From assembly GCF_039596395.1 (NCBI RefSeq), contig NZ_JBCNJT010000002.1, positions 62,001 to 126,000 on the forward strand: 64,000 nt of DNA. Reading direction: 5' to 3'. This DNA is from Fluviicola sp. (GTDB lineage Bacteria > Bacteroidota > Bacteroidia > Flavobacteriales_D > Crocinitomicaceae). Of the stretch, positions 31,122-36,922 are shown in pieces. Within the stretch, counting starts at the first letter, position 1. Every line of letters begins with the position of its first letter. Below the pieces are notes generated by a model, which saw only the letters and a list, made by a program, of their open reading frames with translations, did no database searches and was not told the origin of the DNA. The position numbers and the translations under genes were made by a program.

Positions 31122-32858
31122 TTAAAGCACAAAAGATGCTATTTTTTTTCGCACCACCTGATCCGGTCCTACGTAATCCATTTTAACATTTACGATCGTC
31201 CCGGGTCTTCCCTGTCGTAACAACTTCGTTGCTTCATCGGAAATGTGGTTTCCTTTTCCTTTTTCAGGTCTTGGCGCCGTGTTCAGGCTCAATTCCCAGT
31301 TCAGGATTGTGAATTTGGCATCCAGTGGACTGTTTTTATACCGTGTAAATAAATTCTTTTCTGCCGGAGAAATTTTCCCGCCTTCTTCCACTGCTCCGAA
31401 GAAGAACTCCGGATTCGGAAGTGTCATGATCCGGAACGGGAAAGATCCCAGTTTTACCCGTTTTTTTGAAACCGAGTTTACTCCATAGATATCAATCGTT
31501 GCAGTTCTTCCGCTGGTAGTTACTTTCGCAATGTGCTGACTCCCGGATTTGGACAAAGAAACGCCGTTTCCAACCAGGATTGTTTGATCATAACCGGAAG
31601 CTACACCTTCCACGATATTGCCGTATCCTTTGTAAAGCACATTCAATTGTGGAAGTGAAACCGTTCCCTGCGGCCTCATAATTTTAATGGTGTGCGACCA
31701 GTTCTCCGTTTTTGTTTGCCCGGATTTATTCTTAATGGAAACGGTTCCATTCAGGGTCATTTCGGTTCCCGAGCCTACTTTTGTTTTGATCAGGCCTTTT
31801 CCTTCCGTTCCGCGGAAAGAGGTTCCGTTATAAGTTACCGTTGGTTGATTATCCGAATCAAAAGCTGCCATCATGACGTTCAATGCAACTTCATCGCCCG
31901 CATTTGCAATTTCCGGCCCGTAAACCAATCCTACGATCCTGTTGAAGGAATATTCCCCGACCGCAACCTTGGTTTTCAAGTGAGACAGAGCCAGCGAGCG
32001 CGAAGAAAGAATATCCTGCTGCAGTGAAGACAAAGATGCCAAAGCAGCAACCAGCGGCGCATGATCAAATGTTTGCCCGATCCAATGAACACCTTCCACA
32101 TCATTTTGGGTAACGCGTTCCGGTTTTGTCAGGTTCATGTAAATAGTCGAAAGGATTTCCTCGTCGTCTCTCAGATTGGCTTTGGAAGATTTAATCATCT
32201 GATCCACCTGCTTTTTCAGATCCTGGTTGTTTTTATACGTATTGATAGCCTTCGGATGGATCGAATAGGATTTTTTGCCTTCGTTGTATGTTCCCATGGT
32301 CCGAATTAATTTTGAACGGAAACCGTTATAGTCTTCCCAGATTTTCTTTCCTTTTCCCGTCGGATTCTTAATATCGTCTCCAATTAAAATGTACATGGGA
32401 ACATCGTATTCGTCCTGGGCCTGAACAGCCTTCAGGTTCATCCGTATCGGCCGGCATCCTTCTCCTTTTTGCCAAATAATGGTTTCGTTGTCTTGTGGCT
32501 TGACCGTAGAAACCTCTTCTCCCGATTCTTTCAATATTTCTATCTTTACCTGGTCTATTTCCCGGATCATACTTGCTGAAAGCCGGTCCACTTCCTGCAT
32601 CTGCTTCATCACTTTTTTCAGCTTACGCAATTTCTCAGCATTCTCCTTTGCATCGGTCGAACTGATCTCACTGGATACATCGGAAATAAATTCAGATCCG
32701 CGATCTACCTGCATCCCATTCGATTTCTGGGTGTTTTCTTCAATTGCAACGAAAGCATCCAAAATGGTTTTCGATACATTCAATGCCAAAAGCGCGGTCA
32801 GTACTAAATACATCATCCCGATCATCTTTTGTCTGGGGGTTTCTTTTCCTCCTGCCAT
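31122..32858 (-). CDS. GldM paralogue (second copy)
   Basis: A 578-residue paralogue of GldM, exactly the length of the first copy (35186-36922). The N-terminus MAGGKETPRQKMIGMMYLVL is identical, including R9 in front of the single membrane helix that pairs with GldL in the proton-driven motor. Periplasmic domains follow, with TVSLPQLNVLYKGYGNIVEG conserved. Synonymous sites differ widely, so the duplication is old. It is transcribed after the second gldN (reverse of the normal M-N order), with terminator-like hairpin 32918-32955 between them. It may form an alternative motor or hybrid dimer; inferred. Confidence 0.92.
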   Translation of the reverse strand: MAGGKETPRQKMIGMMYLVLTALLALNVSKTILDAFVAIEENTQKSNGMQVDRGSEFISDVSSEISSTDAKENAEKLRKLKKVMKQMQEVDRLSASMIREIDQVKIEILKESGEEVSTVKPQDNETIIWQKGEGCRPIRMNLKAVQAQDEYDVPMYILIGDDIKNPTGKGKKIWEDYNGFRSKLIRTMGTYNEGKKSYSIHPKAINTYKNNQDLKKQVDQMIKSSKANLRDDEEILSTIYMNLTKPERVTQNDVEGVHWIGQTFDHAPLVAALASLSSLQQDILSSRSLALSHLKTKVAVGEYSFNRIVGLVYGPEIANAGDEVALNVMMAAFDSDNQPTVTYNGTSFRGTEGKGLIKTKVGSGTEMTLNGTVSIKNKSGQTKTENWSHTIKIMRPQGTVSLPQLNVLYKGYGNIVEGVASGYDQTILVGNGVSLSKSGSQHIAKVTTSGRTATIDIYGVNSVSKKRVKLGSFPFRIMTLPNPEFFFGAVEEGGKISPAEKNLFTRYKNSPLDAKFTILNWELSLNTAPRPEKGKGNHISDEATKLLRQGRPGTIVNVKMDYVGPDQVVRKKIASFVL

Positions 32859-32965: not shown

Positions 32966-34021
32966 TTAAAAATTCCAGACGTCCTGTTCAAAAGTCCGGA
33001 TACTTTCTATTATGTCTGCGGATTCCTGCAGCGCGTCGACCCCGGTTCGATAACTATCTATTGACCTGTCAAAAACATTGTTTTCCTTGTAGACCGTGCT
33101 TGAAAACCTGCGCTTCCAGAACAAATCGTCAAAACTCATCCATTGCGCATCATTTTTCTCATTATACACGTAATAGTTAGTCAACAGATACCTTAAATGC
33201 GGGAAATACACCCAGAATTTGGTTTCCAAACCGGCAATCATTGTTTGTCCGTTCGGTGCAGTTTCTTCTTTCAGAACTACGGGTGCAATTCCCAGGATAC
33301 GGACATCCATCACAGAACGTTCCTTATCGAAAAACCAGTCCTCCTTGATCCGGTATTTGACAATGTCTTTGGAATCGATCCAAAATGTGTCTCTTTCTGC
33401 GTAAACAAACTCCTCCACGCCATTTACCCACCGGGTAGAATCTCTTCCGTCCCAGGTTGATAAAATGACATCCGAACCTGGCCCCAACTTGCCTAAATAG
33501 TAGAACACTTCGTTTCTGAACACCGAATCGTTGCAATAATTCCCACCGGGTTTCGGAGCAATCGGGTACTTAAACTGGTCTCCGTCCAACATATCAAATT
33601 GATAAGGATTGTAAGACGAAAAGATTTTCAGGTCACCCTGGATAATGTGATGCCTCATAATGGTCCACAAAGACCAGCAATTGGTATTTCTCACATATTG
33701 TCCGGATGGTGTATGGTGATCGAACGGATAATACAGCGGATGATTGATTTTCTCTCTCAGATCAATTTCCCTCCAAACGCGTTTGCTCCATACCACATCT
33801 GCTTCACGAACGTATTCGTAGGGAATCGTTCGCTTGGTTAGAATGTGTTCTTTCACATAGGGATAATCCAGGGTAGGTGTCATGGAAACAAAATCCGTGG
33901 ATTCACATTGGGCATTTACTTCGTAAATCGCCGCAAAAAACAAGATAAGAGTCAGCTGTAGCTGACGAAGACTGAGGCCCCGTCTTGAGACGGGATGACT
34001 AAAGAATGTAACTCTTTTCAT
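32966..34021 (-). CDS. GldN paralogue (GldO-like, second copy)
   Basis: A 351-residue secreted T9SS ring component, paralogous to GldN at 34146. Conserved blocks: HTPSGQYVRNT, YNPYQFDMLDGDQFKYP, KEDWFFDKERSV, RILGIAPV, and the shared end VWNF. In Flavobacterium a GldN paralogue (GldO) also follows gldN. The signal peptide is odd: between MKRVTFF and the hydrophobic core TLILFFAA lie residues 8-23, SHPVSRRGLSLRQLQL, encoded by two hairpins (33951-33994). Cleavage after A37 (EVNA-Q) looks possible. Extra cysteines (QCES, NTNCWS, NYCNDS) are absent from the first copy. Confidence 0.92.
   Translation of the reverse strand: MKRVTFFSHPVSRRGLSLRQLQLTLILFFAAIYEVNAQCESTDFVSMTPTLDYPYVKEHILTKRTIPYEYVREADVVWSKRVWREIDLREKINHPLYYPFDHHTPSGQYVRNTNCWSLWTIMRHHIIQGDLKIFSSYNPYQFDMLDGDQFKYPIAPKPGGNYCNDSVFRNEVFYYLGKLGPGSDVILSTWDGRDSTRWVNGVEEFVYAERDTFWIDSKDIVKYRIKEDWFFDKERSVMDVRILGIAPVVLKEETAPNGQTMIAGLETKFWVYFPHLRYLLTNYYVYNEKNDAQWMSFDDLFWKRRFSSTVYKENNVFDRSIDSYRTGVDALQESADIIESIRTFEQDVWNF
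33951..33994. repeat. double palindrome inside the GldN2 signal-peptide codons
   Basis: GTCAGCT-GT-AGCTGAC (33951-33966) and CCCGTCT-TG-AGACGGG (33979-33994), each a 7-bp stem with a 2-nt loop, separated by 12 nt. They encode residues P10-T24 of the second GldN in frame. The first GldN has nothing comparable. It looks like an inserted palindromic element. Confidence 0.7.
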
Positions 34022-34145: not shown

Positions 34146-35156
34146 TCAGAAGTTCCAAACGTCGTGTTCGAAATTTCTGATCTCTTCAGTAATCTTCTCA
34201 GATTCCATCAGTGCATCTACACCTGTTTTGTAACTGTCAATCTCACGATCGAACACGTTAGTTTCACGATAGATTGTACTTGTAAAGCGACGTTGCCAGA
34301 ACAAATCATCGAAACTTTGCCACTGTGCGTCGTTCTTGTCATTGTACACGAAGTAGTTTGCAAGAATATAACGGCAGTGCGGGAAATATAACCAGAATTT
34401 CTCATCCATTCCGGTAATTGTTTTACCGCCTGTAGGAGATTCTTCTTCTCTGTAAGTTACAGGAGCAATTCCCAAAATACGCACATCCAATACTGATCTT
34501 TCTTTATCAAAGAACCAATCTTCTTTAATGCGGTATTGTACAATGTTCTCAGAATCGATCCACATCGTGTCAGCCGGAGGGTATTTGAAAGTAATCGTTC
34601 CGTCAGGAAGTGTAATTTCAATCGGATCTCCGAACTCATTTGTCAATGGAACATCACTTTGAGCACCTAATTTTCCTAAATAATAGAAGACCTTGTCGCG
34701 GAATAAAGAATCCGTATAGTAATTCTTCCCTGCTTCAGGTACTACCGGATACTTGAACTGATCTCCATCCAACATATCAAACTGATATGGGTTGTAAGGT
34801 GAAAACACTTTCAAATCTCCGTTGACAATATGGTGACGCAAGATTGTCCACAAAGACCAACGGCTCGTATTTCTTACATACTGACCAGATGGAGTGTGTT
34901 TATCAAACGGTAAATAAATCGGGTGATTCATTTTCTCACGCATATCGATCATACGCCAAACACGATGACTCCAGACTACATCAGCTTCACGAACAAACTC
35001 ATAAGGAATCATTTTTTTGGTCGGTATATGTTCTGTCATATACACCCCATCAATTACATCCGCCTGAGGAACATTCACTGGTCCACCATTGATTTCCTGC
35101 GCGTTCGTTAATAACGAACCAGCAAACAAGGTACTTAATAGAACTAAACGTTTCAT
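34146..35156 (-). CDS. gldN: GldN, T9SS periplasmic ring protein
   Basis: GldN (PorN) binds GldK to form the periplasmic ring under the outer membrane of the type IX secretion system. From the ATG at 35156 the protein has 336 residues with a canonical signal peptide (MKRLVLLSTLFAGSLLTNAQ) and the family blocks HTPSGQYVRNT, NPYQFDMLDGDQFKYP and VWNF at the C-terminus. An upstream ATG (35184-35186) overlaps the gldM stop as TAATG and would add ten residues; either start gives an exported protein. It is the fourth gene of gldKLMN and ends at terminator 34094-34123. Confidence 0.93.
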   Translation of the reverse strand: MKRLVLLSTLFAGSLLTNAQEINGGPVNVPQADVIDGVYMTEHIPTKKMIPYEFVREADVVWSHRVWRMIDMREKMNHPIYLPFDKHTPSGQYVRNTSRWSLWTILRHHIVNGDLKVFSPYNPYQFDMLDGDQFKYPVVPEAGKNYYTDSLFRDKVFYYLGKLGAQSDVPLTNEFGDPIEITLPDGTITFKYPPADTMWIDSENIVQYRIKEDWFFDKERSVLDVRILGIAPVTYREEESPTGGKTITGMDEKFWLYFPHCRYILANYFVYNDKNDAQWQSFDDLFWQRRFTSTIYRETNVFDREIDSYKTGVDALMESEKITEEIRNFEHDVWNF

Positions 35157-35185
35157 GATTGACACTCTATTATTTATTTTATTCA

Positions 35186-36922
35186 TTAAATGGTAAATAC
35201 ACCACTTTTCTTACGTAGGATTCCATCCGGCCCTTTCACTTGCGTCATGAAGCTGATAGTTGATCCTGGTTTTGCTTGTTTCATCAAACTGATACCGTCT
35301 GCGTTCAAAGTGTTTCCTGATCCTTTTGCAGGACGTGGAGCACCGGCAACGTTCAATTCCCATGTTTGTACAGAGAATTCTGCTTTCAACGGGCTATCAG
35401 CATAGCGTGCAAACAAACGTGTTTCTGCTTTAGAAGCTTTACCACCATCTTCAACTGCTCCGAAGAACAATGTTGGAGGAGGCAAGTTCATTACGCGGAA
35501 TGTAAATGTTCCCAAAGAAACTGTTTTGTTTGTTACTGAGTTCTTACCGGAGATAGAGATGGTAGCAGTTCTTCCCGCACCGCTCACACGTCCGATGTAT
35601 TGGTTCCCAGATTTGGATAAAGTAACTCCGTTACCGTTCAAAATTGTCTGATCGTAACCTGAAGCAACTCCTTCAACGATGTTGTTGTATCCTTTGTACA
35701 ATACATTCAATTCAGGAAGAGAAACCGTTCCCTGTGGCTTCATAATCTTGATTGTATGTGTCCAGTTCTCTGTTTTCTTAACTCCTGATTTGTTTTTGAT
35801 AGATACAGTACCATTCAATACCATTTCTGCACCTCCTGAAACTTTTGTTTTCAAAGTACCCTGACCACCACCAACAGTGATTGCTCCAGGACCAGTTACT
35901 TCAGGTTGGTTATCAGAGTCAAACGCAGCCATCATTACTTTCAATTCAACTTCATCTCCTGTGTTAGCGATCACCGGACCGTAAGCCAAAGGCATGATTT
36001 TGTTGAATGAGTACTCACCAGTAGAAACTTTAGATTTCAAGTGAGCAAGTGCATAAGCGCGTGCAGCCAATACATCCTGTTGCATAGAAGTTAAAGATGC
36101 AACTGCAGCTACCAATGGAGAGTGGTCAAATGTAGCACCGATCCAGTGGATACCTTCCATGTCGTGCACTTTTACTCTCTCAGGTTTTGTCAAGTTGATA
36201 TACAAGTCACTCAAAGCCTGGTCATCCTCCATGTGATTCACATTGCTTTTCTTAACCATATCAGTTACCTGCTTCACCAAATCAGCATTGCTTTTGTATG
36301 TATTGATTGCTTTTGGTTTGAAAGAGTAAGTTTTTCCTCCTTCCTTGTAAGAACCAACTGTACTAACGATATCCTCACGGAACTTGATGAAATCAGCCCA
36401 CAACTGTTTTCCTTTACCAGTTGGAGTTTTGATATCTTCACCTACGATCTCATGCATTGGAATATCGTATTGGTCTTTCGCCTGGACAGCCATCAAGTTC
36501 ATACGGATAGGCTTACATTCTGCTGCCTTTTCCCAAAGGATCGTATTTTCATCATCCTTTTTGTATTCTTTTACTGCTTCACCAGACTTTTCTAAGATTT
36601 CCAATTTAATTGCATCGATACTCTTAAGTAATTTGTCAGACATTTTGTTTACCTGATCCATTTGACCTAAGATTTTCTGCAATTTTTCTCTCTTAGCAGC
36701 ATTTTCGGCATTTTTAGGAGTTGTACTCAACTCTTCATCAACATCCGATTTAAATTTATCACCTCGTTCGATCTGAGCGATGTTTGCTTTTTGTATGTTT
36801 TCTTCAATTGCGACAAAAGCGTCGAGAATCTGCTTTGATACGTTCAACGCCAATAGCGCCGTCAATACCAAATACATCATACCGATCATCTTCTGTCTTG
36901 GGGTTTCTTTTCCACCTGCCAT
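35186..36922 (-). CDS. gldM: GldM, T9SS/gliding motor rod
   Basis: GldM spans the inner membrane once and projects through the periplasm; with GldL it forms the proton-powered rotary motor of type IX secretion. The 578 residues start MAGGKETPRQKMIGMMYLVL, with R9 before the single helix (about 12-31), then a coiled-coil region and the C-terminal periplasmic beta domains, as in the known four-domain rod. A lysine-rich amphipathic stretch (30-150) matches domain D1. Stop overlaps a possible gldN start (TAATG). A diverged second copy of equal length lies at 31122-32858. Confidence 0.95.
   Translation of the reverse strand: MAGGKETPRQKMIGMMYLVLTALLALNVSKQILDAFVAIEENIQKANIAQIERGDKFKSDVDEELSTTPKNAENAAKREKLQKILGQMDQVNKMSDKLLKSIDAIKLEILEKSGEAVKEYKKDDENTILWEKAAECKPIRMNLMAVQAKDQYDIPMHEIVGEDIKTPTGKGKQLWADFIKFREDIVSTVGSYKEGGKTYSFKPKAINTYKSNADLVKQVTDMVKKSNVNHMEDDQALSDLYINLTKPERVKVHDMEGIHWIGATFDHSPLVAAVASLTSMQQDVLAARAYALAHLKSKVSTGEYSFNKIMPLAYGPVIANTGDEVELKVMMAAFDSDNQPEVTGPGAITVGGGQGTLKTKVSGGAEMVLNGTVSIKNKSGVKKTENWTHTIKIMKPQGTVSLPELNVLYKGYNNIVEGVASGYDQTILNGNGVTLSKSGNQYIGRVSGAGRTATISISGKNSVTNKTVSLGTFTFRVMNLPPPTLFFGAVEDGGKASKAETRLFARYADSPLKAEFSVQTWELNVAGAPRPAKGSGNTLNADGISLMKQAKPGSTISFMTQVKGPDGILRKKSGVFTI

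Follow-up and report, generated by a model that had tools for sequence, protein, structure and literature searches.

A two-hairpin palindromic repeat in frame within the signal-peptide codons of a second gldN gene of Fluviicola

The gldN2 locus and its insert

The window analysed here is the whole 64,000-nucleotide stretch of DNA, part of a Fluviicola genome of 4.64 Mb in 5 contigs (G000; other G numbers denote relatives' genomes and L numbers fetched loci). Between 31122 and 36922 on its minus strand, gldM (35186-36922 and 31122-32858) and gldN (34146-35186 and 32966-34021) are both duplicated. Pfam matches were obtained for both GldN proteins and for the second GldM, the GldM C-terminal matches falling slightly below the cut-off; the first GldM starts with a sequence nearly identical to that of the second. 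The second gldN, gldN2 (32966-34021, minus strand), is an open reading frame of 351 aa (PF19841, E 2.6e-62). Its codons 1-37 (33911-34021, minus strand), MKRVTFFSHPVSRRGLSLRQLQLTLILFFAAIYEVNA, are assigned to a signal peptide ahead of QC, the cleavage site being placed before Q by the Bacteroidetes Q-rule (PMC5837995). Within these codons lie two perfect inverted repeats of 7 nt, each with arms 2 nt apart. The first, GTCAGCT/AGCTGAC (33951-33957 and 33960-33966), forms hairpin 1 (33951-33966, plus strand) and the second, CCCGTCT/AGACGGG (33979-33985 and 33988-33994), forms hairpin 2 (33979-33994, plus strand); the linker GAAGACTGAGGC occupies 33967-33978 on the same strand. This pairing and these positions agree with the first-pass annotation, as does its reading that the frame is kept and that the palindromes encode P10-T24 (codons 10-24). 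The first GldN (34146-35186, minus strand), said to lack the segment, indeed begins MNKINNRVSIMKRLVLLSTLFAGSLLTNAQ without it.

Homology to other copies indicates that both palindromes are parts of one element, located at 33947-34006 on the plus strand, antisense to gldN2, and fully matching positions 1-62 of our covariance model R1 (51.0 bits, E 3.2e-18 within the window). The span of 33951-33994 originally given therefore holds for the palindromes and falls short of the element's full extent. This copy is the sole significant covariance-model match in the window; the first palindrome occurs there once exactly and, allowing up to 3 mismatches, at one further place (19183). The minus-strand RNA of the palindromic segment has a calculated energy of -19.6 kcal/mol (z -3.6; none of 200 shuffles was equally stable), and its predicted fold contains 6- and 7-bp stems with 4-nt loops.

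A GldN2 protein search of 59 genomes gave seven best non-self matches (G012, G008, G007, G001, G002, G013 and G003; 81-92% identity), all aligning from query residue 21-23 onward only; weaker GldN matches in other genus members were left out of the ortholog count. The N-termini of the orthologs follow the pattern MK(K/R/L)x(T/S)(F/L)IL and the insert is absent from all seven, as would be expected of the palindromic element inserted in a coding gene that had been proposed. Alignments were made with six relatives at the protein level and five at the DNA level. The signal peptide has 18 aa in the five relatives measured and 37 aa in the window (for G012, MKKVTFILFFAAIYDVNA followed by QC), a net gain of 19 codons. 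Aligned against relatives without the insert, the net 57-nt insertion falls at 33947-34003 (plus strand), its edges being uncertain by a few bases. With a caret marking the junction, the plus strand reads AT^AAAGG in G012, G007 and G001, AT^TAAGG in G008 and G002 and AT^AAGAG in the window. The evidence for a target-site duplication is ambiguous and none could be fixed. The far edge of the insert is not placeable to the base. The start-codon context AAACCC(A)AAGCCATGAA is conserved in the same five. Values of dS between gldN2 and its relatives (G007 ortholog not included) were 1.6 to 2.8 or not computable; they are too high for the insertion to be dated or for later selection to be tested by dN/dS.

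The n-region of the signal peptide comprises 3 residues in the five relatives (4 in G001) and 22 in the window, with K+R rising from 2 to 5. The best 10-residue core, LTLILFFAAI, has a mean KD of 2.89, compared with 2.83 for VTFILFFAAI of G012, and the NA^QC site before Q is retained. As both the hydrophobic core and the cleavage site survive, export of GldN2, which the first-pass annotation thought could be altered, is probably kept despite the insert. Redundancy of gldM and gldN may lie behind its tolerance. The RNA structure predicted near the start (-30 to +90) is -29.5 kcal/mol in the window and -15.6, -25.7 and -18.5 kcal/mol in G012, G008 and G007 respectively; the stronger structure could possibly affect gldN2 translation.

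The repeat family

BLASTN with 65 bp (E up to 1) returned matches in 15 of 40 genomes, among them 11 of the 14 genus members; four of the positive genomes, outside the genus, gave weak matches (E 0.2 to 0.8) and none of these was counted. The further copies that the first-pass annotation had proposed to look for are therefore present, with 30 matches in G001 for example. Over 43 nt the window insert is 93% identical to a copy in G007, and over 42 nt 93% identical to one in G001. Model R1 was built from a MAFFT alignment of 27 copies with the window copy left out; against the whole of G000 it nevertheless recovers the window copy with E 2.3e-16. Scanning the 14 genus genomes with the model (E up to 0.1) gave matches in all of them, from 1 to 82 each and at least 389 in sum among the matches listed, including at least 17 in the window's genome and at least 44 in G012. 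The scan of 150 genomes of the family Crocinitomicaceae used stricter filters (E up to 0.001) and found matches in 52 genomes, 12 of them among the 14 genus members and 40 among the 136 other genomes, in 13 of 24 genera; G005 and G010 have no match here, yet 2 and 1 respectively among the matches listed in the genus scan. A strict exact-pattern scan of a species-genome collection located 16 stretches in Fluviicola bin.34 and one in Flavobacteriales UBA7666, 17 in all. No viral contig matched a strict family pattern of 21 bases from which the window copy, too, deviates. Rfam 15, searched with 10 loci carrying copies (E up to 1), gave three matches, none of them at the element. No description of the family was found in the titles and abstract starts of open-licence papers, and Fluviicola is unnamed in the main text of PMC3733652 and PMC2267715.

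The layout common to the 27 model copies is AAGA, hairpin 1, GAAGACTGAG, hairpin 2 and CGA-GGA, about 60 nt in all. Within the linker, GAAGAC is invariant in the 27 model copies and occurs in 122 of the 135 distinct copies. In the window copy the right arm of hairpin 2 and the 3′ end depart from the family consensus, the 3′ part reading GGGATGACTAAAGAA rather than GGAAAAGCCGAAGGA. A separate repeat of the GTCATCCC type was considered as the source of the odd right arm and discarded, since inspection of 275 sequences by eye revealed no such dispersed palindrome family. Two-sided changes were observed in 11 of 15 stem pairs and 54 cells of the 27-copy alignment (covariation score 0.421), with at most 6 pairs, 15 cells and 0.096 in slid controls. 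For 135 distinct matches, whose alignment is fitted to the model and so leans toward structure, the figures are 15 of 15 pairs, 440 cells and 0.567, the slid controls giving 8-11 pairs, at most 123 cells and 0.100. As judged from these alignments, compensatory changes preserve the two stems as the sequence drifts.

We note that seven G001 loci (L057, L060, L062, L063, L064, L066 and L068) have a further nested hairpin-like stretch of about 35-40 nt inside hairpin 2. At L220 (G012:C14 203400-211900) there are four equal-scoring copies 0.6-4.5 kb apart with similar flanks, which suggests that these copies spread together with a larger local repeat.

Placement of copies at gene ends and inside proteins

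Placement was surveyed at 89 loci chosen non-randomly among the best-scoring places. By position, 25 of the 27 model copies fall within these loci, which hold 148 element matches, 112 of them first in an array. The base preceding the element is T in 46 and G in another 46 of the 112, giving a sharp 5′ edge. Array units measure 55-57 nt overall, and the non-coding head-to-tail arrays of L073, L180 and L204 have a step of 55-56 nt. Stop codons were counted for 110 arrays, taking only open reading frames with at least 100 codons upstream; gldN2 and two of the genes described below (E2 and a lipoprotein-like gene) thus lie outside the read-through count. A sense frame of this length enters the 5′ edge in 32 arrays and none enters in 78. 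Of the 32 frames, 14 have a stop codon ending exactly 2 nt past the element's 5′ edge, 15 stop further inside and three read through; as an antisense control, any such frame enters in 6 of 109. The 14 exact cases represent at least 11 distinct genes, one gene being counted in four genomes. This gene, of 190 codons, has the element at its stop in all four; the first stem differs among them, its pairing being good in three genomes and imperfect in the window species. A PorP/SprF gene (PF11751) could be read in 10 of the 14 genus genomes; nine have the C-terminus KTRR(K/R)GFR, six of them terminating with TAA and three with TAG. The element directly follows the stop in G012 only, lies about 40 nt on in G008, and the G002 sequence has Ns. 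Elements are also seen head to head with tRNA genes, at or within 4 bases of their 5′ ends: L228 1501-1562 (tRNA-Met), L224 1501-1561 (tRNA-Arg) and L155 1501-1557 (tRNA-Met), the last being a weak match of 21 bits in the window's genome.

Inside open reading frames of at least 70 aa we found 29 matches, of which 8, in 6 genes, were retained; the 21 excluded lie in short or antisense frames without a recognised homolog, 10 of them in one antisense frame over the L073 array. The element is therefore in frame in six protein genes (7 of the 112 first-of-array copies), antisense in gldN2 and sense in the other five. In the E2 dihydrolipoamide acyltransferase of G012 the copy sits between the lipoyl and E3-binding domains, and the total length of 427 aa is within the 416-433 of relatives. 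Among the topoisomerase III sequences of 14 genomes, that of G007 contains the element and that of G001 a degraded version of it; the linkers of the remaining 12 are shorter and lack it. By sequence comparison the element seems, in E2 as in topoisomerase III, to have replaced part of the linker rather than simply adding to it. A further sense copy is in the HU-CCDC81/SPOR protein of G002. The lipoprotein-like protein of G007, a gene without a Pfam match, carries its sense copy directly after what we take to be a lipobox. A 387-aa protein of G003, likewise without a Pfam match, has three element matches in frame; its repeated unit is 19 residues or 57 nt, as opposed to the 55-56 nt step of non-coding arrays, as selection for the reading frame would predict. 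A common peptide like EEEASLPKTEASSGKDEKPKE is found in four of the five sense-coding proteins. We also counted open frames in 101 copies, each 55-70 nt long and none from the five sense-coding loci; the gldN2 copy was included. The three sense frames are open in 39, 26 and 29 copies (shuffles 41, 40 and 40) and the antisense frames in 41, 72 and 70 (shuffles 57, 60 and 61). Selection for an open sense frame of the kind envisaged for Rickettsia palindromic elements (RPEs) was accordingly not seen, the sense frames being without enrichment over shuffles.

Origin of the insert and rival explanations

Proximity to PF01797 (Y1 transposase) genes was assessed at 23 genus and 9 family loci, 32 in all, over about 1.5 kb per side where the contig permits. 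No mobilising enzyme was found at these loci; a strong element match is near one of them (L077) and a weak one (E 0.049) near the PF01797 gene of L277. The L077 RAYT contains NHIH and YIHQNP, the signature of TnpA_REP subclass 2.6 (PMC6006769). A tandem array of the element lies upstream, on one side of the gene only, with the scored copy ending 136 nt before the start codon; GCTGGATCTCCTGATCC repeats bracket the gene on both sides. Other hairpin repeats, for example GCACGAGCGAGACGCTCGCGCC, CGCGCGAATCCTTTCGCGTG and GCTGGATTTGCAATCCTGCG, were seen by eye beside RAYTs at L077, L080, L082, L275-L277 and L280-L282. The hairpins next to RAYTs of the genus and family are apparently different REP families. 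We also observed a perfect 26-bp palindrome, CGTCAAGGGGATT/AATCCCCTTGACG, in the region of a PF01797 frame at L084 1476-1501 (G000:C2, about 21.5 kb). It recalls the in-frame REP insertions in subclass 2.4 tnpA_REP genes; for this Bacteroidetes subclass, in-frame insertions of REPs into the cognate tnpA are described (PMC6006769).

We consider it very probable that a small non-autonomous copy of the repeat inserted, antisense, in the 5′ codons of gldN2 after the species had split from the sampled relatives. The orthologs lack the segment, which belongs to the repeat family, has conserved stems and leaves the frame open. In the events we propose, two short hairpins and their conserved linker, about 60 nt, would have landed at T^AA in gldN2, and with a net gain of 57 nt the frame would have survived. 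The antisense strand of the palindromes would then supply an arginine-rich n-region ending in LQLTL, with similar residues taking the place of those that had preceded the original hydrophobic core. Both targeting to Sec and cleavage by signal peptidase would probably remain intact, so that the insert could be tolerated. From the copy number, the empty sites and the sharp 5′ edge we infer that the family spreads as a non-autonomous element. The element would most likely move in the form of single-stranded DNA, with an enzyme supplied in trans recognising the hairpins. The retention of hairpin shape amid sequence drift, together with the conserved unpaired feet, would fit recognition as folded single-stranded DNA, which is known from IS200/IS605 and REP systems (PMC6006769).

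Several other explanations have to be weighed. The family could function chiefly as structured RNA at the 3′ ends of genes, in mRNA protection or termination, duplicated and selected, with the gldN2 copy a stray. This is supported by 29 of 110 arrays in which a sense frame terminates at the element's 5′ edge or within the element (in the antisense control any long frame enters in 6 of 109), by the covarying stems and by the 190-codon gene with its differing first stems. It has to contend with the 78 arrays that no sense frame enters, and with copies that lie inside proteins, in antisense orientation in gldN2 or next to the 5′ ends of tRNA genes. Moreover, the PorP/SprF stop is directly followed by the element in one genome of the 10 read, and copies at orthologous sites could have been exchanged by gene conversion. 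We regard this as a possible, if rather unlikely, account of the family as a whole; an RNA role of the gene-end copies may nonetheless be true alongside the mobile-element reading. Somewhat more doubtful is that the element is the REP of a Bacteroidetes RAYT (TnpA_REP) of the subclass 2.6 type, mobilised in trans. Hairpin repeats in extragenic clusters, with in-frame and stop-supplying copies, are characteristic of REPs (PMC3733652), and the L077 RAYT bears the subclass 2.6 signature with an element array upstream (PMC6006769). In addition, 17 of the 27 model copies, and the window copy as well, read CGTC at the hairpin 1 foot when taken on the reverse strand; REPs tagged CGTC have been reported in Bacteroidetes. 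The tag is, however, missing at the 3′ foot of the second hairpin and variable, with GACGAAG present in 44 of the 135 distinct copies, and it lies in a covarying stem. Other subclass-2.6-like genes adjoin different hairpins, as judged by eye, and the L077 gene is itself bracketed by GCTGGATCTCCTGATCC repeats. Nor does copy number track the presence of PF01797: G012, with its at least 44 matches, has no PF01797 hit, whereas G005 and G010, with 2 and 1 among the matches listed, have three each. With one strong and one weak match among 32 loci, a RAYT was not accepted as the driver and is retained as a rival.

The remaining two alternatives concern gldN2 itself. If the palindromes were a 5′ leader and translation began after the insert, the signal peptide would be unchanged. 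REPs at N-termini are frequently annotated as coding in error (PMC3733652), and a TTG codon directly follows the insert. However, five insert-free relatives conserve the upstream ATG together with its context, a TTG start would give a signal peptide with no positive n-region, and the frame is maintained over 57 nt; we find this explanation highly unlikely. That the segment is ancestral in GldN2, or a chance palindrome produced by local drift, has its being in frame in its favour and nothing else that we found. Within the sampled genomes it is refuted by the absence of the segment from all seven orthologs read and by the family match (E 2.3e-16), and we hold it to be extremely improbable. Returning to the insertion of a mobile repeat copy, a more ambitious version can be formulated, in which the family targets T^AA or G^AA and so prefers sense stop codons. 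It would act as a portable 3′-end module, driven by an enzyme acting on single strands, and would become protein in soft linkers and signal peptides, a continuing source of new segments across a free-living family. We offer this larger proposal as speculation that is unlikely to hold in full.

Rickettsia and Wolbachia are the best-known hosts of palindromic repeats that code for protein, and small populations are often blamed for such repeats. The present element brings RPE-like protein-coding behaviour to Bacteroidota, in genomes of about 3-5 Mb, and combines two stems conserved by compensatory change despite sequence drift with a fit to stop codons. Filled and empty sites in related species offer a test of repeat movement and of protein absorption, the export signal of a secretion-system protein included. 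Apart from transposase genes (PMC6006769), no protein-coding case in Bacteroidota was found in the titles and abstract starts of open-licence papers. RPEs are small palindromic repeats that lie in frame in unrelated conserved proteins and add peptide to them (PMC10969869, PMC2229807). The likeness to RPEs drawn in the first-pass annotation stands in one respect, as the element too is in frame inside several unrelated proteins (six genes), and fails for the size and build of RPE-1: this type has 105-150 bp and one long stem-loop from terminal inverted repeats, whereas the element has about 60 nt and two short hairpins. Nearly half of the RPEs first described lay in open reading frames, compared with 7 of 112 first-of-array copies here; most copies of the element are extragenic, and its sense frames are not enriched for openness. 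The shorter RPE-4 and RPE-6 are CGTC REPs, and REPs have been described in frame in genes and near gene 3′ ends, with stop codons supplied by GTAG REPs (PMC3733652). Like REPs and BIMEs, the element consists of hairpins, is mostly extragenic, has many copies per genome, occurs near gene 3′ ends and sometimes supplies a stop or lies in frame. Unlike them, it has no fixed GTAG/GTGG or CGTC tag; it has the conserved feet GAAG and CGA-GG (CTTC on the reverse strand), the GAAGAC linker and CGA-GG end, two hairpins per unit and head-to-tail arrays of 55-57 nt, with no cognate RAYT established. REPs of TnpA_REP subclasses 2.4 and 2.6 come from the same phylum; only one such gene has the element nearby, the others having unrelated hairpins by eye. 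PARCELs are likewise repeats with dyad symmetry that encode protein, but they are 25-residue tandem repeats within open reading frames (PMC2996958), while the element forms short units in unrelated genes and is mostly non-coding. The element, apparently a small repeat that inserts itself into protein sequences, is a new family of a known kind, distinct in its two-hairpin build and its stop-codon fit.
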